Virus record (IMG/VR): IMGVR_UViG_3300009285_016356
Coordinates: 1 to 36,634 of that record
DNA length: 36,634 nt
Reading direction: 5' to 3' (one strand)
Origin: a virus
Positions within the stretch are counted from its first letter, which is position 1; each line of letters starts with the position of its first letter. The position numbers and the translations under genes were made by a program. Below the pieces are notes generated by a model, which was not told the origin of the DNA, made no database searches, and saw only the letters and a program-made list of their open reading frames with translations. Shown one piece after another: positions 2,257 through 28,267 of this stretch.

Positions 2257-3468
2257 TTAAGCCGTCTCGCGCGCGGGTGTTTCGGTCTGCTCGTCGAGCC
2301 ATGCGCGGCGCTTGCGGGCCGCAATGAGGCGCTGGGCTTCCGACCGTTTGATGTACCGGCGCTTGGCGTTCGGCGTGGTGTGGCCTGACATCGCCATTTC
2401 CTGCGTCTCGGTCAGATCGGAATCGGCAATCTCGTTCAGGCCGGCGCGGCGGCAGGCGTCCAGTGTGAGCCAGTCCGGCAGGCCGGCGGCGCGCGCCGCA
2501 TCGCGAACCCGGGCGCGGGCGTCCCGCATCTTGAACGACCGCGCCGGGCCAAGTGTGCCTTTGTATCGGTTGACGATCGGCCGAAACAACACGATGGCGA
2601 CGCCGAGGCGGGGGAGCTGGTCGAGGTAAGCGGTCAGCAGGGGGCTGAACTCGCCGTCGCCGTCCGACAGGGCCGCCCAGGTCATGACGCCGGTCTTATG
2701 GTGCTCGATGCGCACGAAGTTGGGCCGCTCGGCCGGGCGATAGTCGGTCCAGGCCAGATGGCCGGCAATGACGTTCTCCGGCCGCTGCATCCACTCAAGG
2801 CATACCAGCGGGGCGACGGCCAGATGCAGCTCGCCCGCGTCGACGAGCGCCTTGTGGAGCGCGATCGCCTGCTCGCGGGTGGCTGCCGGGCGCTCGCCGC
2901 TGCCATAGACCAGCTCGACATCGCGAAATGGGTTCACCGCCGGCACGTCATTCGGATAGAGCCGCGCGACGACGTCCCACGCGCGCGCCGTTCGCAAAAT
3001 GCTCAGGTTGGCGGCGCGCGTGCGCGTGCCGCGCTTGCCGGTGCGCAGCCGGGCATACAGCTTGTCGACGGCGCGCGCGTCGATCGTCTTGACGGCTGCT
3101 TCGCCGACGGTGCCGCCGGACTTTCGTTCCAGGGCGGTGATGTATCCAAACGCGCGCTCATAGTCGGGCTGTGACCGCATAGATACCTTGGCCCAGGCCG
3201 GCGATCGCTTGTAGCGCTCAATCAGCCAGTTCAGCGTGCCGAAACCCGGCTGCAGGTCAAGCTCGCGCGGTTCGCCGCGACCGGCGCGCCAGTCGTCCAA
3301 ATGACGGTTCAGCTCGTCGGCGCGCGCCTTGGCGGTGGCGTAGTCATGACCGAGATTTTCGGCGTGCAGCTTGAACCCCTGCCGGAAGTCGGAGGCGAGC
3401 GGTCGCCAGTAGTAGGCGACGGCACCCGAGGCCAGCCGTTTCTCGACCATGTAGCGGGGCCAGCCCAT
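2257..3468 (-). CDS. int: Tyrosine recombinase (phage integrase)
   Basis: A 403-residue site-specific recombinase. The N-terminal arm-binding and core-binding regions (about 1-180) precede a catalytic domain with the expected order of residues: R229 (MQRPENV), the beta-hairpin K259 (HHKTG), R340/R341 (LDACRRAG, where the usual first His of H-x-x-R is Asp), H363 (SGH) and the nucleophile Y372 (RRYI). It integrates and, with an excisionase, excises the prophage. The ATG at 3468 is preferred over the longer upstream reading because it overlaps the stop of the excisionase-like gene (TAATG), giving translational coupling. It is the last gene of the leftward operon and lies next to attL, the classic int-att arrangement. 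Confidence 0.93.
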   Translation of the reverse strand: MGWPRYMVEKRLASGAVAYYWRPLASDFRQGFKLHAENLGHDYATAKARADELNRHLDDWRAGRGEPRELDLQPGFGTLNWLIERYKRSPAWAKVSMRSQPDYERAFGYITALERKSGGTVGEAAVKTIDARAVDKLYARLRTGKRGTRTRAANLSILRTARAWDVVARLYPNDVPAVNPFRDVELVYGSGERPAATREQAIALHKALVDAGELHLAVAPLVCLEWMQRPENVIAGHLAWTDYRPAERPNFVRIEHHKTGVMTWAALSDGDGEFSPLLTAYLDQLPRLGVAIVLFRPIVNRYKGTLGPARSFKMRDARARVRDAARAAGLPDWLTLDACRRAGLNEIADSDLTETQEMAMSGHTTPNAKRRYIKRSEAQRLIAARKRRAWLDEQTETPARETA

Positions 3469-3701
3469 TACAAGTCGTCGGCGAGGGATAGGGCCCGGCC
3501 GGGGCCGGTCCGCGTCGGATACCTGTCGAGGTGGTCCTTGTCCCATTTCCGGCTGCGCCCTACGCCCGCGATCGGGGCAGGGTACTCCGTCCCGACCTTC
3601 CGAAGGAAGGCCTCGACCGACACTTCATCCACATAGGCGGCGGCCGTCTTGGCCCTCATGAACCGGGGCCAAGCGCCAGGAGGGGCAGCGGGGCTAGTCA
3701 T
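3468..3701 (-). CDS. Excisionase-like helix-turn-helix protein
   Basis: This 77-residue protein contains a MerR/AlpA-type segment (about 15-62): a helix with KTAAAYVD, a turn, then FLRKVG, and the basic SRKWDKDHLDRYP, which resembles the 'W.k.dld.yi' ending of excisionase/AlpA domains. Such proteins bend DNA at the attachment site and set the direction of recombination. The gene directly precedes the integrase with a one-base overlap, and its ATG overlaps the stop of the upstream gene by four bases (ATGA), so it is embedded in the operon. An internal ATG at 3659 would give a shorter form with the whole domain. The function is inferred from domain type and position. Confidence 0.7.
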   Translation of the reverse strand: MTSPAAPPGAWPRFMRAKTAAAYVDEVSVEAFLRKVGTEYPAPIAGVGRSRKWDKDHLDRYPTRTGPGRALSLADDL

Positions 3702-4936
3702 ACGGCCCCCGCCGGCTCAGGGAGGCGCTGGGGAGCGGCATCGTCGAGGAAGCCACGTCCCGGCATGCCATTGTGTTCGATGCCGTCGAGGAGGCGGCCG
3801 GCGGCTTTCTTGCCGACGCGGAACGCCAGCATGGCTCCCGTCCCAGCTAAGAATGCATTGCGGCCGTTGGGGTCGCAGTGCAGCCCGTCGTGGCGCAGGC
3901 AAAGGGTCTCGACCGTACAAGTTCGACCGTAGCAATCGTCGAGCGCGTCCTGGCTTTCGTTGCTCTTGGCCAGCCGGTTACTGCGATACACGCGGTTGAT
4001 ATCGGTGTCCGACATTTCGCAGACCGGCCACCAATCCCCCCACTGCTTGAAGAAGAACGGTACGCCAGCAGCGACGCACTGGTCGCGCAGGGAGCGCGCC
4101 CAGTCGGGATGCATCGGGCGCGAGCCGTGCTGGCTCTCGCCGCCGACGATGACCCAATCGAGACCGCTCTTGAGCACGCCGTCGCATCCACCTGACGGGT
4201 CGTAATGGAGTGGGCACTTCCAATCGTCCCAGATGATGCTCGGGTCAGCGGAAGGGTCGCCGCGCCAAAGGCGGGCGGGGCTCATGTCGCACTGATCGCA
4301 GACCCGGTGATTACGCAGGTCGATCGGTCCGAGCAGCGGCTCAAGCGAGACGAAGCGCACGGCCGCCGGCGTCGCCAGCAGGTCAGGAACGCGCGCGTCG
4401 GCTTCCTGCTGACGCTCGGCCGAGACGCCGAGCCAGACGTTGGGGAGGGGCCAAGTAGGAATGAACGGCTCGCGTCTATAGACGTCGTCGCGTGCGGGAT
4501 TGAATGCAACCATCCAGTGCCATTGGCGGTGCGGCGCCATCTTTGAGGCACAGTACGCCTGCATCCGAGCCGAGCGCTTCGTCAGCACCTGAAACGTGTG
4601 CTGCGGGCACAGCGCCATGACGGCGAACACCTTGTCGATCCACTCGTCGGGCACGGACTCGTGGAACAGGTCGCCGTGCGCGCAGACGAAGATCATGCGC
4701 GACCGCTTCCACTTCAGCGGCTCCAGCAACGCCTTCTCATTGAAGCGCACCTCTCCGGTCCACACCGGTCCGGCCTTCGACGGCTTGGTGAGGCCGGCGC
4801 GCGTCGGATGGTTCTTGAGCCGCGTGCCGGCGAGCTTCATCGCGTAGCAGTTGGTGCAGCCCGGCGAAACGATGGAGCAGCCCGTGATCGGGTTCCACGT
4901 CGCGTCGGTCCATTCGATCGTGGAGTGCTCAGCCAT
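3698..4936 (-). CDS. Phage Gp37/Gp68 family protein (DUF5131)
   Basis: Residues 4-30 carry the family's opening: HSTIEWTDATWNP followed by cysteines C20, C27 and C30 (the last two as CTNCYA). Later family blocks are visible: FVCAHGDLFHESVP, TKRSARM, PLPNVWLGVS, FVSLEPLLGPIDL, WVIVGGESQHGSRP, GVPFFFKQWG. The protein is common in phages and mobile elements; the N-terminal cysteine cluster suggests metal or Fe-S binding, but the reaction is not established. The start at 4936 is chosen because it overlaps the upstream gene by eight bases (ATGGCTGA) and begins exactly at the conserved N-terminus; the open frame extends about 320 bases further upstream without homology. A C-terminal segment of about 100 residues (after FFFKQWGDWWP) includes a cysteine-rich stretch. 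Confidence 0.88.
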   Translation of the reverse strand: MAEHSTIEWTDATWNPITGCSIVSPGCTNCYAMKLAGTRLKNHPTRAGLTKPSKAGPVWTGEVRFNEKALLEPLKWKRSRMIFVCAHGDLFHESVPDEWIDKVFAVMALCPQHTFQVLTKRSARMQAYCASKMAPHRQWHWMVAFNPARDDVYRREPFIPTWPLPNVWLGVSAERQQEADARVPDLLATPAAVRFVSLEPLLGPIDLRNHRVCDQCDMSPARLWRGDPSADPSIIWDDWKCPLHYDPSGGCDGVLKSGLDWVIVGGESQHGSRPMHPDWARSLRDQCVAAGVPFFFKQWGDWWPVCEMSDTDINRVYRSNRLAKSNESQDALDDCYGRTCTVETLCLRHDGLHCDPNGRNAFLAGTGAMLAFRVGKKAAGRLLDGIEHNGMPGRGFLDDAAPQRLPEPAGAV

Positions 4937-5216
4937 TGGCGCCTCCATTGTGCCGGCGCTCCAGCTTGTCCCACTCATCGTCGGAGGTCGGCCATGCGGT
5001 CGAGCGGAGGATGTCGAGCGCGCTGTCGATCTTGGCGCGCACGTCTGCCAAACGCGCCCGCGCCATCGACGGGTCGCTGAGAACACCCCAGCCGTTGAAC
5101 GAGTAGTTGAAGCCCTGAAGCAGGCGGTGCGCTTCGGTGACCGCCTCGAACACGGCGTCCGTCCGCTTCGAAAGCTCGTTGATGGAGCATTTCTCGGCAA
5201 CGATGTTCTCAGCCAC
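4929..5216 (-). CDS. Small hypothetical phage protein, 95 aa
   Basis: It starts with GTG at 5216, which sits in an eight-base overlap (GTGGCTGA) with the stop of the upstream 40-residue gene, and it ends in an identical type of overlap with the Gp37/Gp68 gene. The protein is largely helical (NELSKRTDAVFEAVTEAHRLL; ARLADVRAKIDSALDIL) with no recognisable catalytic motif. It could be a small partner of a neighbour. The strict overlaps and the GC-rich third codon positions support it as a real gene; I do not recognise the family. Confidence 0.65.
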   Translation of the reverse strand: MAENIVAEKCSINELSKRTDAVFEAVTEAHRLLQGFNYSFNGWGVLSDPSMARARLADVRAKIDSALDILRSTAWPTSDDEWDKLERRHNGGANG

Positions 5217-5331
5217 GGATCGTCCTCCATGCGTTGATCAGCGCGCAACGCAGCCACCAGCGGGGGCCGAGCGCGCGCACGTTCCAGAGGAAAGATTGCA
5301 GCGAGCGCAGGGGCGGTGGGCGGTCAGTCAT
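5209..5331 (-). CDS. Very small protein, 40 aa
   Basis: ATG at 5331 to TGA at 5209-5211 encodes a 40-residue basic protein rich in Trp, Leu and Arg (FLWNVRALGPRWWLR, INAWRTIRG). The start lies just inside the end of the upstream Cys-rich gene and the stop overlaps the GTG of the downstream gene, so it fills the only gap in an otherwise fully overlapping operon. The amphipathic, Trp-rich sequence could be membrane-associated. It has no recognisable family, and it is supported mainly by position. Confidence 0.55.
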   Translation of the reverse strand: MTDRPPPLRSLQSFLWNVRALGPRWWLRCALINAWRTIRG

Positions 5332-5560
5332 CGGCCGCCTCGTCGGTCGCGCTGCCGGTGCCGTCACAGCCATCGCACGAGCATGGCTCCGCATCGGGGC
5401 CGCACATGCAATCGGTGACGGCAGATTTACAGCAGAGGCAGACATGGCCGGTGCCATCGCACGTGGTGCAGGAATCGCAGAGTGCATCGAACGCCGCGAG
5501 CACCCTGCCACCATAGCTGCCGTCGTTCGCTTCGACGGGCTTGCGCTTCGGGATCGCCAT
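5324..5560 (-). CDS. Cys-rich zinc-ribbon-like protein, 78 aa
   Basis: After a short basic N-terminus the protein has repeated CxxC-type pairs: CDSCTTCDGTGHVCLCC, then CMC, CSCDGCDGTG. The CDGTG units are like those of DnaJ-type zinc-binding repeats. It probably binds one or two zinc ions; the acidic tail (ATDEAADD) is disordered-looking. It starts 3 bp after the stop of the membrane-protein gene upstream and overlaps the 40-aa gene downstream, so it belongs to the leftward operon. The role is unknown; zinc-binding adaptor or DNA/RNA binding are both possible. Confidence 0.65.
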   Translation of the reverse strand: MAIPKRKPVEANDGSYGGRVLAAFDALCDSCTTCDGTGHVCLCCKSAVTDCMCGPDAEPCSCDGCDGTGSATDEAADD

Positions 5561-5563
5561 GAC

Positions 5564-5758
5564 TCAGAGCCCTTTCCATTTCGCTCGGTCGCGGGCGTCT
5601 TCGTCGCCCTCATAAACCGCGAATAGCTCCAGCTTCCGCCATGCCCAAATGAGAGCCAGCAGTGGTGCGATCAGCGCGAGAAACAGCAGGAAAACCAATC
5701 CGCCGACCAGCGGCGGGAGCGCCAAGATCGCTCGACAAACGCCTCTCAGAATCCGCAT
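5564..5758 (-). CDS. Small membrane protein, 64 aa
   Basis: Residues about 10-40 form a long, very hydrophobic stretch (ILALPPLVGGLVFLLFLALIA, then PLLALIWAW), one long or two short membrane helices, followed by a charged cytoplasmic-type tail (EGDEDARDRAKWKGL). The ATG at 5758 shares one base with the stop of the preceding gene (TGATG). Small membrane proteins of lysogeny operons often act in superinfection exclusion, but nothing here shows that specifically. Confidence 0.65.
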   Translation of the reverse strand: MRILRGVCRAILALPPLVGGLVFLLFLALIAPLLALIWAWRKLELFAVYEGDEDARDRAKWKGL

Positions 5759-6000
5759 CAGACCAGCCCCTTATCGCGGGCAAGCCATTCGGGCATGGAG
5801 ATCTCGCCGCAGCCGTCGATGCTGACCTGCCCGAGCGGCAGAGACATCCGGCGCGGGTTGCGGCCGTGCGTCATGATGTTGAGCACGTAGCCGTCCGAGT
5901 TTAGGATGTCGCACGTGATGCCGGTGCGCTCGCCGGTTATGTCCGCCGGCAGCGGCGGCCGCCGCCGCCGAGCGCCTTCGTGGTGGTGGTGTCTCGTCAT
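5758..6000 (-). CDS. Small hypothetical protein with His/Arg-rich N-terminus, 80 aa
   Basis: The start at 6000 is preferred because an AGGGGG ribosome-binding site lies a few bases upstream; a TTG at 6018 is in the same frame. The N-terminus has four consecutive His and an Arg cluster, then a compact domain (ITGERTGITCDILNSDGYV, MTHGRNPRRMSLPLGQV, IDGCGEISMPEWL) that looks like a small beta-rich fold. No family is recognised. The one-base TGATG overlap couples it to the membrane-protein gene downstream. Confidence 0.6.
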   Translation of the reverse strand: MTRHHHHEGARRRRPPLPADITGERTGITCDILNSDGYVLNIMTHGRNPRRMSLPLGQVSIDGCGEISMPEWLARDKGLV

Positions 6001-6054
6001 CTTGCCCCCTGAAATCAAAAAGGGGTGCGGGCCGCCGTGCCCACACCCCGCCCT

Positions 6055-6363
6055 CTACTTCCCCGCTGCAACCTGTTGCTGCGCCCCGCCGGAACCCAGG
6101 CGCTCGATGTCGTCAAGCTTGGCGAGCAGAGGGATGGCGCGCTCTTGTGCCTCGCGCGTCATCTGCCGCTCGCGCCAGCTCAGGCGCTGGCTTTGCCCGT
6201 GCAGCGTTGCGATCCGCAGCAACGCTTCGACCGTGGTTTTGATTTCGTTGCGCGCGCTCCACAGCCGCTCGCGTGCGCCGCTCTCGGCCGCCTCCGGCGT
6301 GCGCGCGTACGCAGCCAACGCACGCGCCATTTCATCGCCGGAGGTGTCCCGTGTGACTGACAT
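6055..6363 (-). CDS. Hypothetical phage protein, 102 aa
   Basis: A helical protein (ARALAAYARTPEAAESGARERLW, split by short turns; IKTTVEALLRIATLHGQ; LSWRERQMTREAQERAIPLLAKLDDIERL) consistent with a coiled-coil or small DNA-associated protein. It lies 8 bp after the upstream 185-aa gene and 54 bp before the next, and has the operon's codon use. No known family or catalytic motif was found. Confidence 0.6.
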   Translation of the reverse strand: MSVTRDTSGDEMARALAAYARTPEAAESGARERLWSARNEIKTTVEALLRIATLHGQSQRLSWRERQMTREAQERAIPLLAKLDDIERLGSGGAQQQVAAGK

Positions 6364-6371
6364 CGTTGACG

Positions 6372-6929
6372 CTACGCTGCCGCCGCGTCGCGGGCGGCCT
6401 GGAGGCGCTGGGCCACGTCGGCGAGCGAGTCAGGGCCGCCGATGGCACCGAGCGCGAACAGCACCTTGGTTGGGCTTGCGTCGTGGGCGATCTCGCACAG
6501 CATCTTGCGCGCGATTTCCGTGGCGAAAGTCTCATCGCACTCGGCTGCTGGCGTCCCGGTGAGGCGGGCGAAGCTCTGCATGGCGATGCCGGCGGTGTGG
6601 GCAGTGTTGGCGACGATCAGGTCGATGGGCTTGTGGAGCTTCGTGCCGGCAGGCTTGGTGGAAGCGGGTTCCTCCTGCCGGGGTGCTGTCGTGTCGCTCG
6701 GGGCCGGGCCGATCACGAGGCAGACTTCTTCGCCCGGGACGAGATGGACGACGCGCTCGTTCGACTTCTGGGGCTCGGGGCTGGATACACCGGCCCCGGC
6801 ATGGCCGGTCGTCGCTGGTCCGGCGTCGTTCGCTGGCGCCTCGGCCGTGAACGTGCCGGTGTGGCCGTTGGCATTCTCGCCACCGTGCAATTGGCCGCCA
6901 GAGATCGTGATGCTTGCACTTTCGGACAT
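6372..6929 (-). CDS. Hypothetical phage protein, 185 aa; first gene of the leftward operon
   Basis: The first 100 residues are low complexity, rich in Gly, Ala, Pro and Thr. The C-terminal 80 residues look folded (KPIDLIVANTAHTAGIAMQSF, ETFATEIARKMLCEIAHDA, VLFALGAIGGPDSLADVAQRL). A helix containing LIVANTAHTAGIAMQ followed by a four-helix-like region is all that can be said. It is the promoter-proximal gene of the operon and starts about 40 bp downstream of the repressor-controlled promoter near 6970-6998, so it is probably expressed as an early or lysogeny gene. Confidence 0.6.
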   Translation of the reverse strand: MSESASITISGGQLHGGENANGHTGTFTAEAPANDAGPATTGHAGAGVSSPEPQKSNERVVHLVPGEEVCLVIGPAPSDTTAPRQEEPASTKPAGTKLHKPIDLIVANTAHTAGIAMQSFARLTGTPAAECDETFATEIARKMLCEIAHDASPTKVLFALGAIGGPDSLADVAQRLQAARDAAAA

Positions 6930-7047: not shown

Positions 7048-7569
7048 ATGTGGAAGTTCTGTTGTCGGGTATTGGTGGCGGCGCTACTGTTTCCGGTCGC
7101 ACCAGCGGTTGCGCAGTGGATGCACATGGCCGGCGAGGACGATCCCTTCGCCGGCGGCGCTCAGCAGATCGCTGGAGGCGTAGCGGACACAGGCGAAATG
7201 GTCATGTTCCGTTGCACAACTGGCAGCGATCTCGCGATGCTGTTCGTTTCAATCGAAAAGCCACCAGAGGATGCCGCCATCCTGGCGATGCTGGCCGCAT
7301 CCAAGGCCACGCTGCTCGTGATTGTGGACAACGATCCCGTCGTCGTTCTTCCTGCTGTCATCGACACGACGCCGGATCGACAACGTCTGCGCTACGTGTC
7401 CTCGTCCCCGCTCGTAGAAAGCATCACCGCGCGCGCTGCCGCGGCTAAGCGTCGGGTGGCTGTCGCGGTGGAAATCAACGGCAAGCGCGTATACAGCACG
7501 GCGGTCGCCGCGCGCGGTTCGGGACGCGAGCTCGGGAAGTTGACGCGAGCATGCAGGCTGGGGAGTTAG
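7048..7569 (+). CDS. Secreted hypothetical protein beside the repressor (possible lysogenic conversion gene)
   Basis: The ATG at 7048 follows a strong GGGGGTGGGGG ribosome-binding region and begins a classic signal peptide: MWKFCCR, a hydrophobic core VLVAALLFPVAPAVA, and a likely cut after AVAQ. An upstream in-frame ATG at 6997 would place the operator inside the coding region and spoil the signal peptide. The mature part, about 150 residues, is a beta-rich domain with two cysteines (MFRCTTG near the start, TRACRLGS at the end), perhaps a disulphide. The gene overlaps the stop of the repressor gene tail to tail by 3 bp and sits next to an operator. Periplasmic proteins in this position are often lysogenic conversion or exclusion factors; this is inference. 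Confidence 0.6.
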   Translation: MWKFCCRVLVAALLFPVAPAVAQWMHMAGEDDPFAGGAQQIAGGVADTGEMVMFRCTTGSDLAMLFVSIEKPPEDAAILAMLAASKATLLVIVDNDPVVVLPAVIDTTPDRQRLRYVSSSPLVESITARAAAAKRRVAVAVEINGKRVYSTAVAARGSGRELGKLTRACRLGS

Positions 7570-8830: not shown

Positions 8831-8906
8831 CGCGGGGTAGAGCAGCGGTCAGCTCGCTTGGCTCATAACCAGGAGGCCGTGGGTTCGAATCCCACCCCCG
8901 CTACCA
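8831..8906 (+). tRNA. tRNA-Met(CAT), initiator-like, phage-encoded
   Basis: A complete 76-base cloverleaf. Acceptor CGCGGGG (8831-8837) pairs with CCCCGCT (8896-8902) except for position 1:72, which is C:T; D-arm GAGC/GCTC around an 8-base loop; anticodon arm CTTGG/CCAGG with loop CTCATAA, anticodon CAT at 8864-8866; T-arm GTGGG/CCCAC around TTCGAAT; discriminator A and encoded CCA. Three features are those of initiator tRNAs: the unpaired 1:72 position, A11:T24 in the D-stem, and two of the three G:C pairs above the anticodon loop (the third is T:A). It is read in the direction of the early operon. Confidence 0.93.
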
Positions 8907-10558: not shown

Positions 10559-11722
10559 ATGTGCTGGCTTATCGACTTCCCGTCACCGGCAATGCGGCTG
10601 GTGATGATGAAGATCTGCGACTGCGCCGATCAAGACGGCTGCAACGTATTTCCGGCGGTTGCGACCATCCAGCGTGAAACCGGTCTGAAAGCGCAGAGCA
10701 CCGTGCGCGATGCCATCGCCGCCTTTGAGGAAGCCGGGCTGCTGATCGTCAAGGGCAACCAGTTTGGCGGCAATACGACGACCGTGCGCGAGCTGGATAC
10801 CGACAAGCTGCGCCTCGTCACAGGACAACGGCGCAAGGGCGAAAAACCGTACTGCTCGACGCACGTTCTGCGTTGCGGCGAGATCGAGATCCCCGGCGAT
10901 CCGGAGGCTGAGCGTGGCGATGTCGTCGTGGTGTTTGTCCCCGGCGCGGCGCTGCCCAGCTACGTTGAGAAACGTAAGGCGAGTCGCACTGCGCAGGTGA
11001 TGGCCATATTCCCGCGGGCCAATGGCGATGTGCCGGCCGGCTATGAGCCGCCGCCGTCTATCGTCCAGGCTTGGCGCGGAGCCACCCCTCCGCTCAGCGG
11101 AGAGGTGGCGACCGACGTTACCCCTCCGATGAGCGGAGCCCCCCCCTCCGATGAGCGGAGCCCTCCCCTCCGCTCAGCGGACCCCACCCCTCCGCTGAGC
11201 GGAGCCAACCCTTCACTTGAACCTTCACCTGAAAGATATTCCCCCCTTTCCCCCCGCCCGCGGGGGGAACAGTGCGATGTGTGGATTGACGAAGTTCGGC
11301 AAGACAAGCCGGGCTGTGGACGAGCGTTGGACAAGCTGTTCGCCCCGCTGTTGGCAAAGCTGCCGTTCAAGGCCACGAACCCGCGGCATCGGCTGAGCGT
11401 GCTCGCCGAGTTCGCCGAGGCGCAGTCCGACGAGGTGCTGGCCGAGGCGCTCCGGCTGCTGCTGATGCCGGGTCGCAAGGGCTCACCGACCACCGACGTG
11501 CGGCAGCGGCACATCGAGAAGGCAATCGCCGACGCCCGCGCCTTGATCGACAGCCGCGGGCTGGCCGAACGTGGGCCGCTGCTGTTCCCAGGGACCGCGC
11601 CACACGCCGAAGCCCTCGCAAAGGTCGCGGCCGTCGACCCGACATGGGCCGCCGAGCTACGCGGCCAGCCCTACATCAAGCGCAGCACCCTGCGCGCCTA
11701 CGGCGTGGAGCAGGCACCATGA
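10559..11722 (+). CDS. Phage replication initiator-like protein with N-terminal winged helix (lambda O type organisation)
   Basis: 387 residues from ATG 10559 (the frame extends to a GTG at 10514). Residues about 1-75 are a winged-helix domain of the kind found in phage replication proteins (MRLVMMKICDCADQDGC, VFPAVATIQRETGL, STVRDAIAAFEEAGLL). A Pro/Ser-rich linker (about 175-235) is encoded by DNA with five iteron-like repeats. The C-terminal part (about 255-340) is helical (LLAKLPFKATNPRHRL, EALRLLLMPGRKGSP). Lambda O has the same plan: a DNA-binding N-terminus with origin iterons inside its own gene. The identification is by domain and repeats, not by strong family signature. Confidence 0.65.
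   Translation: MCWLIDFPSPAMRLVMMKICDCADQDGCNVFPAVATIQRETGLKAQSTVRDAIAAFEEAGLLIVKGNQFGGNTTTVRELDTDKLRLVTGQRRKGEKPYCSTHVLRCGEIEIPGDPEAERGDVVVVFVPGAALPSYVEKRKASRTAQVMAIFPRANGDVPAGYEPPPSIVQAWRGATPPLSGEVATDVTPPMSGAPPSDERSPPLRSADPTPPLSGANPSLEPSPERYSPLSPRPRGEQCDVWIDEVRQDKPGCGRALDKLFAPLLAKLPFKATNPRHRLSVLAEFAEAQSDEVLAEALRLLLMPGRKGSPTTDVRQRHIEKAIADARALIDSRGLAERGPLLFPGTAPHAEALAKVAAVDPTWAAELRGQPYIKRSTLRAYGVEQAP
11085..11204. repeat. Five iteron-like 18-bp repeats, putative phage replication origin
   Basis: Copies of CCCCTCCGCTCAGCGGAG or its variant CCCCTCCGATGAGCGGAG start at 11085, 11121, 11143, 11165 and 11187. The last four are exactly 22 bp apart, two helical turns. The core CTCCGCT-C-AGCGGAG is itself an inverted repeat. 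Because 22 is not a multiple of three, the copies fall in different reading frames (PPLSG, PPMSG, PSDERS, PLRSA, PPLSG), so the DNA and not the peptide is conserved. An AT-richer stretch with a CTTCA-CTGAA repeat (11211-11240) and a GC hairpin (11250-11267) follow, as expected at an origin. Confidence 0.65.
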
Positions 11723-12279
11723 CACAGCAGCAGCTCCGCTCCGATCTTCCCGTGTCGGCAGCCGCCACGCCAACCCTGCCGACGCGGGCCCCGTTCTCCG
11801 AGCCGGCCGAGCGCGAGGATCCGCGCAACGCCCTGCTCGACAGCGCCACGCGGCAGATCGTCGACCTCATCGAAAGCGCGGTGCGTAACGACGTGCTCGT
11901 GCCGCTGCTTGCGCGCATCGAGAGCCAAGTGCCGGCGCTGTCCCGCGTGTTGGCACCGGTCCTGCCTCCCAGCATCCCCGCGCCGGCAAAGGCTTCGTGC
12001 GGAAGCCCGGCGCCGCAGCAGCCCGCCGCGCCGGCGCGGGGTATCGACACCACCGCGGCTGAACTCCGCCTGACGAAGCTCTTGGCAGCGCTCCGGGTCG
12101 GCAATCCGAAGACGCCGGCTGCGCGCGATCTGGTCGACGGCGCCAGGATGGACGTGCTGTCGGAACTCGCGGCGTTGCGCGCGGCCAGATCGGTGATCGA
12201 AGCGCGCGGGGAGCCGCAGGCGCCACGCCACAGCGAGCCGGTCACGTACATCCTCGACGACGCAGGGAGCGGGCAATGA
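11719..12279 (+). CDS. Hypothetical phage protein, 186 aa
   Basis: It starts in an ATGA overlap with the replication gene and ends in another with the methyltransferase gene. The N-terminal half has a helix (LLDSATRQIVDLIESAVRND) and a Pro/Ala linker; the C-terminal half (TTAAELRLTKLLAALRVGN, ARDLVDGARMDVLSELAAL) is helical. Its place directly after the initiator is where lambda-type phages keep a helicase loader (P), but no such similarity can be seen, so the function is left open. Confidence 0.6.
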   Translation: MTQQQLRSDLPVSAAATPTLPTRAPFSEPAEREDPRNALLDSATRQIVDLIESAVRNDVLVPLLARIESQVPALSRVLAPVLPPSIPAPAKASCGSPAPQQPAAPARGIDTTAAELRLTKLLAALRVGNPKTPAARDLVDGARMDVLSELAALRAARSVIEARGEPQAPRHSEPVTYILDDAGSGQ

Positions 12280-13217
12280 CCGAGATCCACAAGCCCAAGG
12301 GCTCATACGCCGTCATGGCCGAGCGTCGCGACCCGACCGACAGCCTAGATTTCTTCCCCACGCCGCCGTGGGCCACACGCGCGCTGATGGAGCACGTGCT
12401 GTCGCCGAACGACTTCGACGGTTGCGACGTGCACGACGCCTGCGCCGGTGAGGGCCACATGGCCGAGGTGCTGCGCGAATACTTCGACGAGGTGCATGCC
12501 TCCGACGTGCGCGATTACGGCATGGGCTACGGCGTCGGCTCGTTCGTCGGCGATGGCGCCGACGTCTACCGCCTGCCCGAGCGGGCCGACTGGAACATCA
12601 TGAACCCGCCGTTCAAGCTGGGCATCGACTTCGCGCGCCAGGCGCTGCGCCAGGCGCGCATCGGCACGGCGCTGCTGGTGCGCACGTCTTGGCTGGAATC
12701 GTCCGAGCGCTACCGCCTGTTCGCCGAACGCCCACCGACGACCGTCGGCGTGTTCTCCGAGCGCGTGCCGATGACCAAGGGGCGCTGGGACCCGGAAGCG
12801 TCGACCGCTACCAGCTACGTCTGGATCACATGGAAATGGCCGTTCCGCGTTGCTGGCGACAAGGCGGACCTGATTTGGATACCGCCCGGCCAGCGCAAGG
12901 CGCTGACGAAGGCCGACGACGTCGAGCGCTTCGATACGATCGTGAGCCGCGCCGACCGCATCACGTGCGGCGTGCACTGGTCCGAGCCGGACGGCTGGCA
13001 CGTCTATCTCGACACCGGCAACGCGTTCCTGCCGATGAAAGCCGATGCGATGCACAAGATCGGCCTGCGCTACCGCGCCCAGCCGCATGCGCACCACGCC
13101 GTGCAGCGGCTTTGCGAGTCGATGATCGACTGCGCCGCCGAGGCGAAGGATCGCCGCGCCAGCGGAGCGCGGCCGAACGCAAACGACCACCACGCAAACG
13201 GAGGACTAGCAGCATGA
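12276..13217 (+). CDS. N6-adenine-type DNA methyltransferase with extra C-terminal domain
   Basis: Residues 26-33 (FFPTPPWA) resemble the usual opening of phage adenine methylases. Motif I is at 54-61 (DACAGEGH, SAM binding), D77 ends the following strand, and the catalytic NPPF is at 110-113, the gamma/beta-type N6-adenine motif. The methylase domain covers about 25-200. A separate C-terminal part, about 230-290 (GWHVYLDTGNAF, MHKIGLRYRAQPHAHHAV, CESMIDCAAEAK), aligns with the stand-alone protein at 14253-14591. Phage methylases commonly protect against host restriction or mark DNA for replication. ATGA overlaps on both sides. Confidence 0.85.
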   Translation: MTEIHKPKGSYAVMAERRDPTDSLDFFPTPPWATRALMEHVLSPNDFDGCDVHDACAGEGHMAEVLREYFDEVHASDVRDYGMGYGVGSFVGDGADVYRLPERADWNIMNPPFKLGIDFARQALRQARIGTALLVRTSWLESSERYRLFAERPPTTVGVFSERVPMTKGRWDPEASTATSYVWITWKWPFRVAGDKADLIWIPPGQRKALTKADDVERFDTIVSRADRITCGVHWSEPDGWHVYLDTGNAFLPMKADAMHKIGLRYRAQPHAHHAVQRLCESMIDCAAEAKDRRASGARPNANDHHANGGLAA

Positions 13218-24367: not shown

Positions 24368-24427
24368 GTGGGCAATAGCCATGGCCCTTTGGCGTGGGGC
24401 ATCTGTCGAAGCGCTCCGGCTCATCCG

Positions 24428-24589
24428 TCATCGGGACCTCTCGAACATACGCCACCGCTCGCGGTTGGCCGCCTTCCATGCATCAGTCTTGACCTTGATC
24501 TCAACGCCGGTTGGGGGAAGCGTTGCCAATTCGTGTGCCTCGGCTACTGTGCGAGGACGTGTCGGCCTCCAGGTCTCGTCGATTGCCAT
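24428..24589 (-). CDS. Tiny protein (53 aa) ending in RWRMFE; resembles a ligase C-terminal tail
   Basis: ATG 24589 to TGA 24428 encodes 53 residues: a polar start (MAIDETWRPTRPRTVAEAHEL), then TGVEIKVKTDAWKAANRERW and RMFERSR. The second half is like the 'W-x-K-x-K-x-x-x-W-R-x-A-N-R-x-R' tails I associate with ATP-dependent DNA ligase-like proteins, but the catalytic part is absent. It lies back to back with the glycosyltransferase start, with one base between the two start codons. Its last six codons share a 17-bp identity with the tiny gene at 25693-25806. It is either a genuine microprotein or a gene remnant. Confidence 0.45.
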   Translation of the reverse strand: MAIDETWRPTRPRTVAEAHELATLPPTGVEIKVKTDAWKAANRERWRMFERSR

Positions 24590-24590
24590 A

Positions 24591-25634
24591 ATGAATAAAA
24601 TAGACATCGTACTGCCCGTGCGAAACGGGGCGCCCTATATTGCGCAGGCGCTGACAAGTCTGTGCGCAGAGGCCGAACTCATCAATCGATTGCTTCTAAT
24701 CGATGATGGCTCGACAGATGGTACCGTAGATATCGCTCGCAAATTTGAAGGCGCGGTATCGATGGAGATCCTGCAACGGCCACCTCAGGGAATTGTTGCA
24801 TCATTGAATGCTGGGCTCGCTGCGGCGACCACCGATTATGTCGCGAGGATGGATGCCGACGACATCTGCCTGCCCAACAGACTTAAGCGCCAAATCGAGT
24901 TCCTCGACGCGAATCCAGAGATAGCCGTTGTCGGTGCTCAGGCGGCGTTCATCGACCAGTACGGCGCGCTCACCGGCCAAACAACGAATTACCCGCTTTG
25001 GCCGCGGCAGGTGCGCAGCAAGTTGTTGAGCAAGGGATGTGTCGTTTGCCACCCGACCGTGCTCTTTCGTCGTAAAGCCGTGTTACAGGTCGGCGGCTAC
25101 CGGGCCGCCTTTGAGTTAGCCGAAGACCATGATCTGTGGCTTCGGTTGGCTGACACGCTTAGCGTTGCCAACATTCCGGATGTTTTGCTTCACTATCGCG
25201 TACACCCCGATCAGATAACTAGATCGCGCAATCTACGGCGGGCGTTTACGAGAGATCTGGCGGTTTGGTGCGCGCGTCAACGGGCGTCTGGAAATGCCGA
25301 GCCAACAGAATTAGTTCAGTTCGCGGGCACGCCGCTGGAGCTGGCATCTCATACCGATGCGCCTCCCTTTGTAGCGAGGCTTGCCAAAGTCCACGCATCA
25401 ATAGCTGAGTTTGAGGTCGGGAAGTCCAAGCCGACTCTCTCGGAGCTCGAAGAGATCCTAAGTCTGGTCAGAGGGCGCCACATCGGCGGGGGCAGGCGAG
25501 GCCGATATAAACTTCTGAGTTCAGTGCGCCGCGAATTGGCGCGACGCGGTAAGTGGCTTTCTGCGACGAAGGCAGCCTTTACAGAGATAAGATGCCGAGT
25601 GACTGACGCCGCCGTGTTTCGGGTTTTCTCGTGA
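24591..25634 (+). CDS. Glycosyltransferase family 2 (cargo/serotype-conversion gene)
   Basis: 347 residues from ATG 24591; the frame extends upstream but without homology. The GT-A fold is plain: IDIVLPVRNGAPYIAQAL, LLLIDDGSTDGT (38-44), NAGLAAATTDYVARMDADD with the DxD metal motif at 88-92, then VGAQAAFIDQYG, HPTVLFRRKAVLQVGGY and LAEDHDLWLRLAD with the catalytic-base ED region. The last 100 residues are unassigned. The DNA is more AT-rich than its neighbours and codon use differs, pointing to recent acquisition. Such prophage genes usually modify the host O-antigen or capsule and block superinfection. The product sugar cannot be told. Confidence 0.85.
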   Translation: MNKIDIVLPVRNGAPYIAQALTSLCAEAELINRLLLIDDGSTDGTVDIARKFEGAVSMEILQRPPQGIVASLNAGLAAATTDYVARMDADDICLPNRLKRQIEFLDANPEIAVVGAQAAFIDQYGALTGQTTNYPLWPRQVRSKLLSKGCVVCHPTVLFRRKAVLQVGGYRAAFELAEDHDLWLRLADTLSVANIPDVLLHYRVHPDQITRSRNLRRAFTRDLAVWCARQRASGNAEPTELVQFAGTPLELASHTDAPPFVARLAKVHASIAEFEVGKSKPTLSELEEILSLVRGRHIGGGRRGRYKLLSSVRRELARRGKWLSATKAAFTEIRCRVTDAAVFRVFS

Positions 25635-26222: not shown

Positions 26223-27326
26223 TCAGCCGGCCATCAGGCTCTTGCACCTACCGCGCTGGGTGCGGGCGGGGATGAGACCGTCCGCCTCCCACTCGCGCAC
26301 CCACTCCGACACTCGCTGCTTGCGGACGCCGGACAGTCCGGAGAGCGCCTGCTGCGAGGGGACCGTCCGGCCGCTGTCGAGTTCGGCCAGCACGTAGTCG
26401 AGCACGTCCTGCTTGGACAGTCCGCCGCCCACCGGGGGAAGCGGACAGTCCGGCTTGCGGACCGTCCGGACGCCGCCGTCACGGGGACCCTCCGAACTAT
26501 CCGGGATTTCCGGATAGTTGCGCGGACCGTCCGCCTGCACGAACCGCTCGCGGATGGCGGACAGTTCGGCATCGGTAACGCCAGCGAGGACAGTCTGCGC
26601 CGGGAGAGCAGGAGCAATGTGCATTTTCCGCACATTGCTCGCCGGCCGGTGAGAGGGCCGGAACACGTAGTGCACCGCAAGCGTGAACCCATACTCGACA
26701 AGGATGGTGATCAGGATCGGCATCACCAGCATGCTGATCGCCTTAGCCTTGGTGCCGTTGCGGCCGATGGCGTCGGTCAGATTGCCAAGCGCCTCGGCGG
26801 ATGCGTCGGCCGGCTTTACCTTGAGTGCATCGAGCTGGGCCTGAATGCCGGCGGCATTGTCGGTCCAGAACTTCACCACGGCGCGGGCGCCGCGGCATTT
26901 GGTGCCTTCGCCGGACTTGCATTCGGCATCGGCTTCCTTCTGGCGCTGGGCGATCGTTGCCTCCGCGTCAGCCTTCTTGCGAGTGAGATCGCCGCGCTTG
27001 TCGACGGCCTTGTCGTGGTCGTCTCCAGCGACGATCTGGCCTTCGGTCTGCCGGCCGAGAGAGTTCCACCCGATGACACCCGAGCCGGCTAGCGCCAGGA
27101 TGAGGAAGCCAAAGCCGGCCATGATGTGCCGTTTCTTGAACGCTGACGTCATGGCCATCCAGGCCGTGGTGGTAGCGATCACGATGCCGGCGGTCTGGAA
27201 GTGCTTTTGCGTGAAGTCGACGCCGCCGAAGATGACGTCGCCGAACAGGAGGGACGTGCCGACGGCACCGAGGGCGCAGGCGGTGACGATTGCGGCCAGC
27301 CGGCCGCCCATGTTATCGATGGTCAT
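26223..27326 (-). CDS. Membrane protein with C-terminal winged-helix-like domain, 367 aa
   Basis: ATG 27326 has AAGGAAGGA upstream. Three membrane helices lie at about 10-28, 45-62 and 68-86, then a helical, charged region (about 95-175) with two Cys (C136, C144), a fourth helix at 196-222 (AISMLVMPILITILVEYGF), and a cytoplasmic tail. Residues about 303-352 (SKQDVLDYVLAELDSG, SQQALSGLSGVRKQRVSEWV, REWEADGLIPA) look like a winged-helix DNA-binding unit. The layout suggests a membrane-tethered regulator or a DNA-membrane linker. The 3' coding part contains the GGACNGTCC cluster. It is the last gene of the ribozyme-punctuated operon. Confidence 0.65.
   Translation of the reverse strand: MTIDNMGGRLAAIVTACALGAVGTSLLFGDVIFGGVDFTQKHFQTAGIVIATTTAWMAMTSAFKKRHIMAGFGFLILALAGSGVIGWNSLGRQTEGQIVAGDDHDKAVDKRGDLTRKKADAEATIAQRQKEADAECKSGEGTKCRGARAVVKFWTDNAAGIQAQLDALKVKPADASAEALGNLTDAIGRNGTKAKAISMLVMPILITILVEYGFTLAVHYVFRPSHRPASNVRKMHIAPALPAQTVLAGVTDAELSAIRERFVQADGPRNYPEIPDSSEGPRDGGVRTVRKPDCPLPPVGGGLSKQDVLDYVLAELDSGRTVPSQQALSGLSGVRKQRVSEWVREWEADGLIPARTQRGRCKSLMAG
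26275..26596. repeat. Cluster of GGACNGTCC palindromes inside a coding region
   Basis: Perfect copies of GGACAGTCC or GGACCGTCC start at 26331, 26360, 26415, 26443, 26459 and 26524; one-mismatch copies start at about 26275, 26485, 26559 and 26588. Several are extended to CGGACNGTCCG. The starts fall in all three codon phases of the overlapping gene, so the peptide does not explain them. They may be binding sites for a phage or host protein. One further copy is seen at 9156. Confidence 0.6.
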
Positions 27327-27411
27327 GTGGACTGTTCCTTCCTTGGTAGGGTGGGATGCACACACGGCCCGGGGGCGTTGACGCGCCTGCCGGGCCACTT
27401 CGTTTCTGATG

Positions 27412-27478
27412 GGCCTCATCAGCGAGGGCGTACCCCTCGGACCATCGCCGCCCCTTTCGAGGCGGCTAGGTTTCGGCC
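27412..27478 (-). ncRNA. Type II hammerhead ribozyme, copy A
   Basis: On the minus strand, in order: GGCC (stem II 5' strand), GAAA, CC-TA-GCCGCC, an 8-base loop, GGCGGC-GAT-GG-TC (stem III, ending in the GTC cleavage triplet, C at 27440), stem I hairpin CGAGGG/CCCTCG around GTACG, CTGATGA (27422-27416), and GGCC closing stem II. All core positions match the hammerhead consensus. It lies 47 bp after the stop of the 27526-27747 gene and about 85 bp upstream of the membrane-protein start; a GGCCCGG/CCGGGCC hairpin (27366-27396) follows in the leader. Confidence 0.82.
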
Positions 27479-27525
27479 TTAACGAGTCGGGCGCTTGCGC
27501 TTGAGCGTGGCGACAAACTGGCGCC

Positions 27526-27747
27526 CTAGCTCCGGATGGAGACGACGACCGGCCGATCGGCCGCGGTGATGGTCGCGGTCGCCTCGATCGGCGTGATGTC
27601 CGGCAGCGTGAGATTGAGCGCCACGACGCGGAAACCCTCATCGTGGCCGTGGTTCTCGACCAGGGCGTCGGCCGCCGTCTGCGCGTCGACGTCGCTCGCC
27701 TCGAGGTCGCCGGCGGCGTTGTAGGCTATCCAGAGCATCGCATTCAT
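27526..27747 (-). CDS. Small hypothetical protein, 73 aa
   Basis: ATG 27747 is preferred because AAGGGA lies at the right distance upstream and the hammerhead copy B just before it; an ATG at 27771 would place the start inside the ribozyme. The protein (MNAMLWIAYNAAGDLEASDVDA, DALVENHGHDEGFRVVALNLTL, TITAADRPVVVSIRS) is a small alpha/beta domain with no known family. It is the third gene of the operon. Confidence 0.62.
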   Translation of the reverse strand: MNAMLWIAYNAAGDLEASDVDAQTAADALVENHGHDEGFRVVALNLTLPDITPIEATATITAADRPVVVSIRS

Positions 27748-27763
27748 AGCGTCGTCCCTTGTT

Positions 27764-27829
27764 TGGCTCATCAGGCCGGCACTCGCCGGCGACCATCGCG
27801 GGGCGCTGGGCCCCCGCTAGGTTTCGCCA
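27764..27829 (-). ncRNA. Type II hammerhead ribozyme, copy B
   Basis: Minus strand: TGGC (stem II), GAAA, CC-TA-GCGGGG, an 8-base loop, CCCCGC-GAT-GG-TC (stem III, GTC cleavage triplet with C at 27791), stem I GCCGGC/GCCGGC around a 4-base loop, CTGATGA (27774-27768), and GCCA pairing back to TGGC. The core is perfect. It begins 6 bp after the stop of the 38-aa gene and ends 17 bp before the ATG of the 73-aa gene, leaving room only for that gene's ribosome-binding site. Confidence 0.85.
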
Positions 27830-27834
27830 TCACG

Positions 27835-27951
27835 CTATCGCGCGCGGTTGACGGCCCAAAAATGCCAGCAGGTTAGCGCGAGGACGTTTTGAGCGCGGTG
27901 CAGGGCGCGGTACTTGCGGTCGACCGCATTGTAGAGTTCGCCTACTTTCAT
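27835..27951 (-). CDS. Tiny protein, 38 aa, between two ribozymes
   Basis: ATG 27951 has GGGAGAG upstream; TAG at 27835-27837. The sequence (MKVGELYNAVDRKYRALHRA, then LTCWHFWAVNRAR) is basic and aromatic-rich, a probable amphipathic helix. Its position exactly between hammerhead copies C and B, each directly abutting, argues that it is a real gene and a separate message after cleavage. No family is recognised. Confidence 0.6.
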   Translation of the reverse strand: MKVGELYNAVDRKYRALHRAQNVLALTCWHFWAVNRAR

Positions 27952-27965
27952 GGTGCTCTCCCGTG

Positions 27966-28029
27966 GGCTCATCAGAGGCGGCATCCCCGCCTGATCATCG
28001 CGGGGCGCGGGGCCCCGCTAGGTTTCGCC
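27966..28029 (-). ncRNA. Type II hammerhead ribozyme, copy C (variant cleavage triplet)
   Basis: Minus strand: GGC (stem II), GAAA, CC-TA-GCGGGG, a 7-base loop, CCCCGC-GAT-GA-TC (stem III), stem I AGGCGG/CCGCCT around a 5-base loop, CTGATGA (27975-27969), GCC. The triplet is ATC instead of GTC, so one pair next to the core (C:G in copies A and B) is a C-A mismatch. It may cleave more slowly. It starts 1 bp after the stop of the first operon gene and ends 14 bp before the ATG of the 38-aa gene. Confidence 0.75.
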
Positions 28030-28030
28030 T

Positions 28031-28267
28031 TCACGCCGCAACCTTGTCGGCGGTCAGCACCGGCGACATCGAGTAGCGGCCATGGGGGTCGCAGCACTCG
28101 GTGTTGTCGTAGATGCGCACCCGGCGAGCGCGAATCGTGCCGCTGCTGTTCAGCCAGACCGTTTTCTCGGTGCGCTTGACGACTTCGAATTTGAACACGC
28201 ATTCGTAGTCGCAGATCGAGCGAACGGTGTAGGTGCGGCCGACTTCAAATTTTGCGATGGTGGTCAT
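28031..28267 (-). CDS. Small hypothetical protein, 78 aa; first gene of the ribozyme operon
   Basis: ATG 28267 is preceded by ACGGAGCC. The frame reaches further upstream but into the promoter. The protein looks like a small beta-barrel (FEVGRTYTVRSICDYECVFKF, KTVWLNSSGTIRARRVRIY) with paired cysteines (CDYEC, ECC). It is the promoter-proximal gene and the only one of the four without a hammerhead upstream. No family is recognised. Confidence 0.62.
   Translation of the reverse strand: MTTIAKFEVGRTYTVRSICDYECVFKFEVVKRTEKTVWLNSSGTIRARRVRIYDNTECCDPHGRYSMSPVLTADKVAA

Follow-up and report, generated by a model that had tools for sequence, protein, structure and literature searches.

Genes and ribozymes of a minus-strand phage operon

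The window, by which we mean the whole 36,634-nt stretch of viral DNA analysed, carries on its minus strand an operon with three hammerhead-like elements at its junctions, A (27412-27478), B (27764-27829) and C (27966-28029). The three copies lie within 618 bp, between small open reading frames (ORFs), and the contig that bears them also has terminase and portal genes of a phage; this arrangement fits the definition of a prophage hammerhead array. The first-pass annotation had also spoken of a lysogen; nothing in the analysis shows that the phage is one.

In the direction of transcription, gene 1 (28031-28267, 78 aa) comes first, and its TGA stop codon ends 1 nt short of copy C's stem II. Relatives of this gene are present in L046, the locus nearest to the window (87% identity), and in L036 (49%), where the gene is flanked by hammerheads on both sides. 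Two of its distant relatives, in L318 and L319, have no hammerhead nearby, hence gene 1 does not need one everywhere. Copies C and B enclose a 38-aa ORF, the candidate gene 2 (27835-27951), for which no relatives were found and which may not be a real gene, so that the four-gene transcript proposed earlier is uncertain. Gene 3 (27526-27747, 73 aa), 97% identical in L046, is followed by a remnant gene tail (27482-27525, VATLKRKRPTR and a stop codon) that ends shortly before copy A and resembles the end of an L281/L296 gene preceding the same ribozyme type; this similarity is short and suggestive only. Gene 4 (26223-27326, 367 aa) has relatives at 27-38% identity in L010, L046, L025, L007 and L040. 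Wider scans for relatives of genes 1 and 3 yielded few loci. PHROGs assigned no function to genes 1-4 and Pfam none to genes 1, 3 and 4, and a distant blastn search of the operon against annotated phages gave no match.

Each ribozyme had been placed between the stop codon of one gene and the ribosome-binding site of the next, which is correct for C and B. Copy A, however, is preceded by the remnant gene tail, and on its downstream side 85 nt that include a second hairpin separate this copy from the start of gene 4. The second hairpin (27326-27411) is GC-rich and has no U-run, and a hairpin-like stretch is likewise placed after the related ribozymes of L010, L281 and L296. Neither intrinsic terminators, including U-run terminators, nor promoter motifs were found at the operon junctions. 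Elsewhere in the window we noted a tRNA gene (8831-8903, plus strand; Rfam RF00005, 63.8 bits), a DUF5131 protein (3698-5257; PF07505, E 1.1e-93), and capsule-synthesis-like (PF05159) and glycosyltransferase/O-antigen-conversion-like proteins at 861-2066 and 24381-25634, which are possibly host surface modification genes.

All three elements show the type II order: the 3' strand of stem II, C-GAAA, the stem III hairpin, TC, a 6-bp stem I hairpin, CTGATGA and the 5' strand of stem II. The conserved core (CUGAUGA and GAAA, A15.1-U16.1, and H at position 17, here C) is present in each of them. In the folds of A and B, three helices surround this core, with stems I and III closed by hairpin loops and stem II open; copy C has one mismatch in stem III. 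Stem II of copy A consists of 4 bp (GGCC/GGCC). As the first-pass annotation had stated, stem I differs between the copies with pairing kept (CGAGGG/CCCTCG in A, GCCGGC/GCCGGC in B, AGGCGG/CCGCCT in C), and the TA/GAT internal loop of stem III (UA/GAU in the RNA) is found in all of them. The cut sites it predicted, 27440, 27791 and 27993, are the C17 positions of A, B and C, and cleavage would fall between 27440 and 27439, 27791 and 27790, and 27993 and 27992, respectively.

A strict descriptor, with a minimum of 4 bp for stem I, 2 bp for stem II and 3 bp for stem III, detected only A and B in the 36.6-kb window, and a stricter version (5, 3 and 3 bp) gave 0 matches in 300 dinucleotide shuffles. 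Copy C failed the strict descriptor because of a C15.2-A16.2 mismatch in stem III (GATGATC, where A and B have GATGGTC) and was recovered by a relaxed type II descriptor; this relaxed scan and descriptors of types I and III revealed no ribozyme beyond A, B and C in the window. When the elements were folded with RNAfold, a check suggested by the first-pass annotation, the hammerhead was the best structure for A (-37.1 kcal/mol) and B (-34.4 kcal/mol), but not for C, which folds as a hammerhead once the mismatched A is replaced with G, the base in L046. Inspection by eye of the 4-5-nt loops I revealed no 4-bp match to the stem II 3' tails that could form the loop I pseudoknot; such a pseudoknot is not required of all hammerheads, according to Perreault et al. 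2011 (PMC3088659).

Covariation in relatives and a short-armed subclass

Scanned over the whole window at the gathering threshold, Rfam missed A, B and C and reported the tRNA only. With a permissive threshold, the Hammerhead_II model (RF02276) matched B with 22.7 bits and C with 15.0 bits, compared with the 37 bits required, whereas A had no match at E up to 10. To IMG/VR phage contigs we applied the search pattern CGAAACCTA..GATGRTC..CTGATGA, which fixes only the core together with the internal loop and the three proximal pairs of stem III, leaving stem I, stem II and distal stem III free. The search returned 44 matching stretches; those in L018 and L038 lacked hammerhead stems, appeared to be chance matches and were dropped from the pairing counts. 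The pairing set contained 43 distinct elements, the three window copies among them. Every stem I pair was formed in 42-43 of the 43 elements, while column shuffles led one to expect 18-28, and all 43 elements form the pairs of distal stem III. In a formal count over 39 of these elements, 97.9% of the cells were paired compared with 65.0% after shuffling, and the covariation score for the 39 elements was 0.761, compared with 0.156 for shuffled and at most 0.125 for slid partners.

A covariance model, R1, was built from 32 elements, with the window copies and their near relatives excluded. Its scan of the window gave exactly three matches, namely A (71.9 bits, E 2.8e-18), B (65.0 bits, E 2.6e-16) and C (60.2 bits, E 5.7e-15). 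The descriptors and the covariance model thus confirmed the three minus-strand type II hammerheads of the first-pass annotation, and its assignment of such ribozymes to the operon junctions is strongly supported by the pattern relatives, by their pairing and covariation, and by the independent model. We regard it as almost certain that A, B and C are hammerhead ribozymes. To judge from their sequences, A and B are very probably catalytically active, while the chances that C is active are about even; given its stem III mismatch, C may be a weak ribozyme. Decayed or inactive hammerhead-like hairpins that only stabilize or terminate transcripts could account for the mismatch and alternative fold of C and for the Rfam scores below threshold, but each of the three copies retains an intact core, covariation of the stems extends across phages and there is no U-run terminator, and we consider this explanation highly improbable.

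According to stem I, phage type II hammerheads fall into two groups: one with long arms (more than 18 nt), which takes in the published pseudoknot type of the 2011 consensus, and one with short arms (stem I of 6-7 bp with a loop of 3-6 nt), to which the window copies belong. Among the loci scanned against Rfam and matched by position, the Rfam threshold was passed by 1 of 42 short-armed elements versus about 30 of 35 long-armed ones. Rfam is therefore largely blind to the short-armed subclass, and the lack of Rfam matches above threshold in the window, which comes close to a refuting condition set by the first-pass annotation, reflects a gap in the model and not an absence of hammerheads. The internal loop was rejected as the cause, since short-armed elements with an ordinary stem III are also missed, and the threshold is reached by some of the long-armed elements that have the loop. 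An A stands five positions ahead of GAAA, immediately outside stem II, in 29 of 30 short-armed elements with the internal loop and in 31 of 34 other short-armed elements; from its conservation, this A may be part of a tertiary contact replacing the pseudoknot in short-armed ribozymes.

The stem III internal loop, whose two strands read CCU and AYGG, occurs in 66 of the 399 elements of our comparative set, a share enriched by the search pattern and drawn from both arm groups. Its variants are UA/GAU, UA/GAC, UG/GAC, UC/GAU and UA/AAU. When only the CC/GG base pairs were fixed in the search, CCTA/GAYGG was found in 10 of 36 elements. At 12 loci, loop-bearing and loop-free elements occur together in the same array. 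The same subtype is present in genome contigs of named hosts, including Inquilinus limosus, Microvirga lupini, Devosia, Bradyrhizobium and Pseudomonas. With caveats, we report the short-armed type II subclass, often with a conserved CCUA/GAYGG internal loop in stem III, as new, judged against the text of Perreault et al. 2011.

Arrays, probable message processing and possible gene exchange

The comparative set comprises 399 ribozymes from 248 distinct loci. Counted over the 344 phage hammerheads with enough flanking sequence, 250 have a stop codon within -12 to +6 nt of stem II together with a start codon no further than 45 nt downstream, compared with a mean of 17.7 for random positions taken from the same strand. 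The stops end mostly between -5 and +2 nt relative to stem II, which means that this stem and the stop codon adjoin or overlap. Most phage hammerheads thus fit almost exactly into the gap that separates a stop codon from the start codon after it, a placement that we report, with caveats, as new. At least two copies occur at 69 loci, nearly all of them phage, and at all 69 the copies lie on one strand.

The largest array found, in L110 (IMGVR_UViG_3300017605_000570, 2823-6745), packs eleven type II hammerheads of the long-armed group into 4 kb. Each of them separates ORFs, which are mostly small, and the stops overlap stem II at most of the junctions in this array. L266 carries nine hammerheads, two of which (at 7283 and 7776) are identical and have unrelated genes on both sides; this identical pair would reflect copying or homogenization of the ribozyme itself. 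In L270 (IMGVR_UViG_3300022548_000077, 10785-13093), five short-armed CCU/AYGG hammerheads within 2.3 kb surround a group of genes, and the products of some of these read as pentapeptide-repeat proteins.

Among the explanations considered, we judge it likely, on the evidence of sequence comparison, that the hammerheads cut the operon mRNA co-transcriptionally into hairpin-capped units, and, with somewhat less confidence, that such processing is their selected function. The nascent polycistronic RNA would be cut after C17 at each junction, leaving the upstream message with a 3' stem III hairpin and a 2',3'-cyclic phosphate end, and the downstream message with a 5'-OH stem I hairpin followed by a leader with the next ribosome-binding site. 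In bacterial RNA decay, the hairpin-closed ends of both messages should be protected. The type II layout, which places a closed hairpin on both new ends, would thereby slow down exonucleases and 5'-end-dependent decay and uncouple the genes; interference by a ribosome at the nested stop codon is a possible addition. It is from the observed structure, covariation, homology and location that we infer the cleavage of A, B and C and its effects on stability and translation.

The processing model is supported by the intact cores, the correct permutation, the covariation in 43 relatives, the R1 scores, the position between stop and start codons and the one-strand arrays. It is also supported by the junctions, which carry no terminator or promoter motif, and by the reported cleavage of homologous arrays in vitro and in E. 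coli (PMC3088659), in the latter case by one array, the Agrobacterium tumefaciens triple. It is weakened by the remoteness of copy A from gene 4, the doubtful gene 2, the mismatch in copy C and the inactivity in vitro of 4 of 18 consensus hammerheads of the 2011 study (PMC3088659). The earlier proposal that the operon RNA is cut into shorter messages is plausible and corresponds to the published view of such arrays, but the single messages from four genes are uncertain.

The recurrence of the CCU/AYGG internal loop and the position of the stops, at which a terminating ribosome would cover a stem II strand and GAAA, could also point to regulated cleavage, in which the stem III loop or the ribosome at the nested stop times each cut and the hammerheads act as switches, not as constitutive processors. 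For such switches we found no candidate ligand or protein, nor a partner to which the loop could dock; stem III is ordinary in many members of the arrays, and the nested stop could simply save space. We consider regulation unlikely.

Comparison of the window with L046, which lies on a 58.5-kb phage contig, revealed two shared blocks. One, 316 bp long with 98.4% DNA identity (27836-27522), opens immediately ahead of copy B and consists of copy B and gene 3; the other (81%) extends as far as the 3' edge of copy C. In the space from copy C to copy B, the 38-aa ORF of the window is replaced in L046 by an unrelated one of about 190 codons. That blocks of identity between phages open and close at ribozyme edges is likewise reported, with caveats, as new. 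Among 117 ribozyme pairs at least 95% identical, the flanks were shared on both sides in 91, downstream only in 10, upstream only in 4 and on neither side in 12, and in many of the discordant pairs identity breaks off no more than about 10 nt from the ribozyme, or at the ATG that follows. Homology breakpoints reached a density of 7.1 per kb at ribozyme junctions, compared with 4.4 per kb at other co-directional junctions and 2.2 per kb elsewhere. These counts are only suggestive, because they lack independence and because alignments tend to end at ribozymes, which are conserved.

Such comparisons suggest that junctions with ribozymes are sites of gene swapping between phages. The ribozymes might cut and yet have been selected as joints of exchangeable gene cassettes, not for message maturation. 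Small genes in many phages would then travel as units of nested stop, hammerhead and ribosome-binding site, the self-cutting junctions doubling as exchange joints, and the window and L046 would differ by one cassette swap between copies C and B. If this were true, any gene brought between two ribozymes would work at once as an independent, end-protected message. The identity blocks that begin and end at ribozyme edges, the twelve nearly identical pairs with unrelated flanks and the breakpoint densities speak for these joints; however, gene boundaries are the usual break sites of phage mosaics anyway, and conserved ribozymes attract alignment ends. We put forward the cassettes, and the single swap as part of them, tentatively, as a possibility somewhat short of even; they are compatible with mRNA processing, and both can hold.

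Comparison with known systems

What phage hammerheads are for has been a question since 2011. The large comparative set assembled here (399 ribozymes, 248 loci, arrays of up to 11), the placement between stop and start codons and the short-armed subclass missed by Rfam are of value in this respect, as is a possible link between self-cutting junctions and gene exchange, which is directly testable.

With RF02276, the window copies share the core and the permutation, and B and C match it partially; they differ in scoring below its gathering score of 37 bits, as the model mainly recognises long-armed elements. The stem III loop resembles the 11-nt GAAA tetraloop receptor (CCUAAG/UAUGG) in its CCU and AYGG strands, and C is tolerated for the bulged U in both, but the hammerhead loop is CCUAG/CGAYGG and has no A-A platform. 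A search for a docking GNRA loop or another partner identified none, and no literature match to the loop was found. With platform and partner missing, a tetraloop-receptor role was rejected and only the resemblance is noted.

Serial hammerheads in a phage operon had been thought not to be described, a claim of novelty that is unsupported, since Perreault et al. 2011 (PMC3088659) already reported clustered hammerheads flanking single prophage genes, with cleavage in vitro and in E. coli, and a 2017 review (PMC6155905) restated the same association, with small non-conserved ORFs. The 2011 clusters include the ardA triple array of A. tumefaciens and those of Azorhizobium caulinodans and Clostridium scindens (PMC3088659). 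The window differs from these arrays in its genes, its phage and its short arms, and in the stem III internal loop, which is absent from the text of the 2011 paper. It shares with them the presence of several one-strand hammerheads, type II among them, that flank single phage genes.
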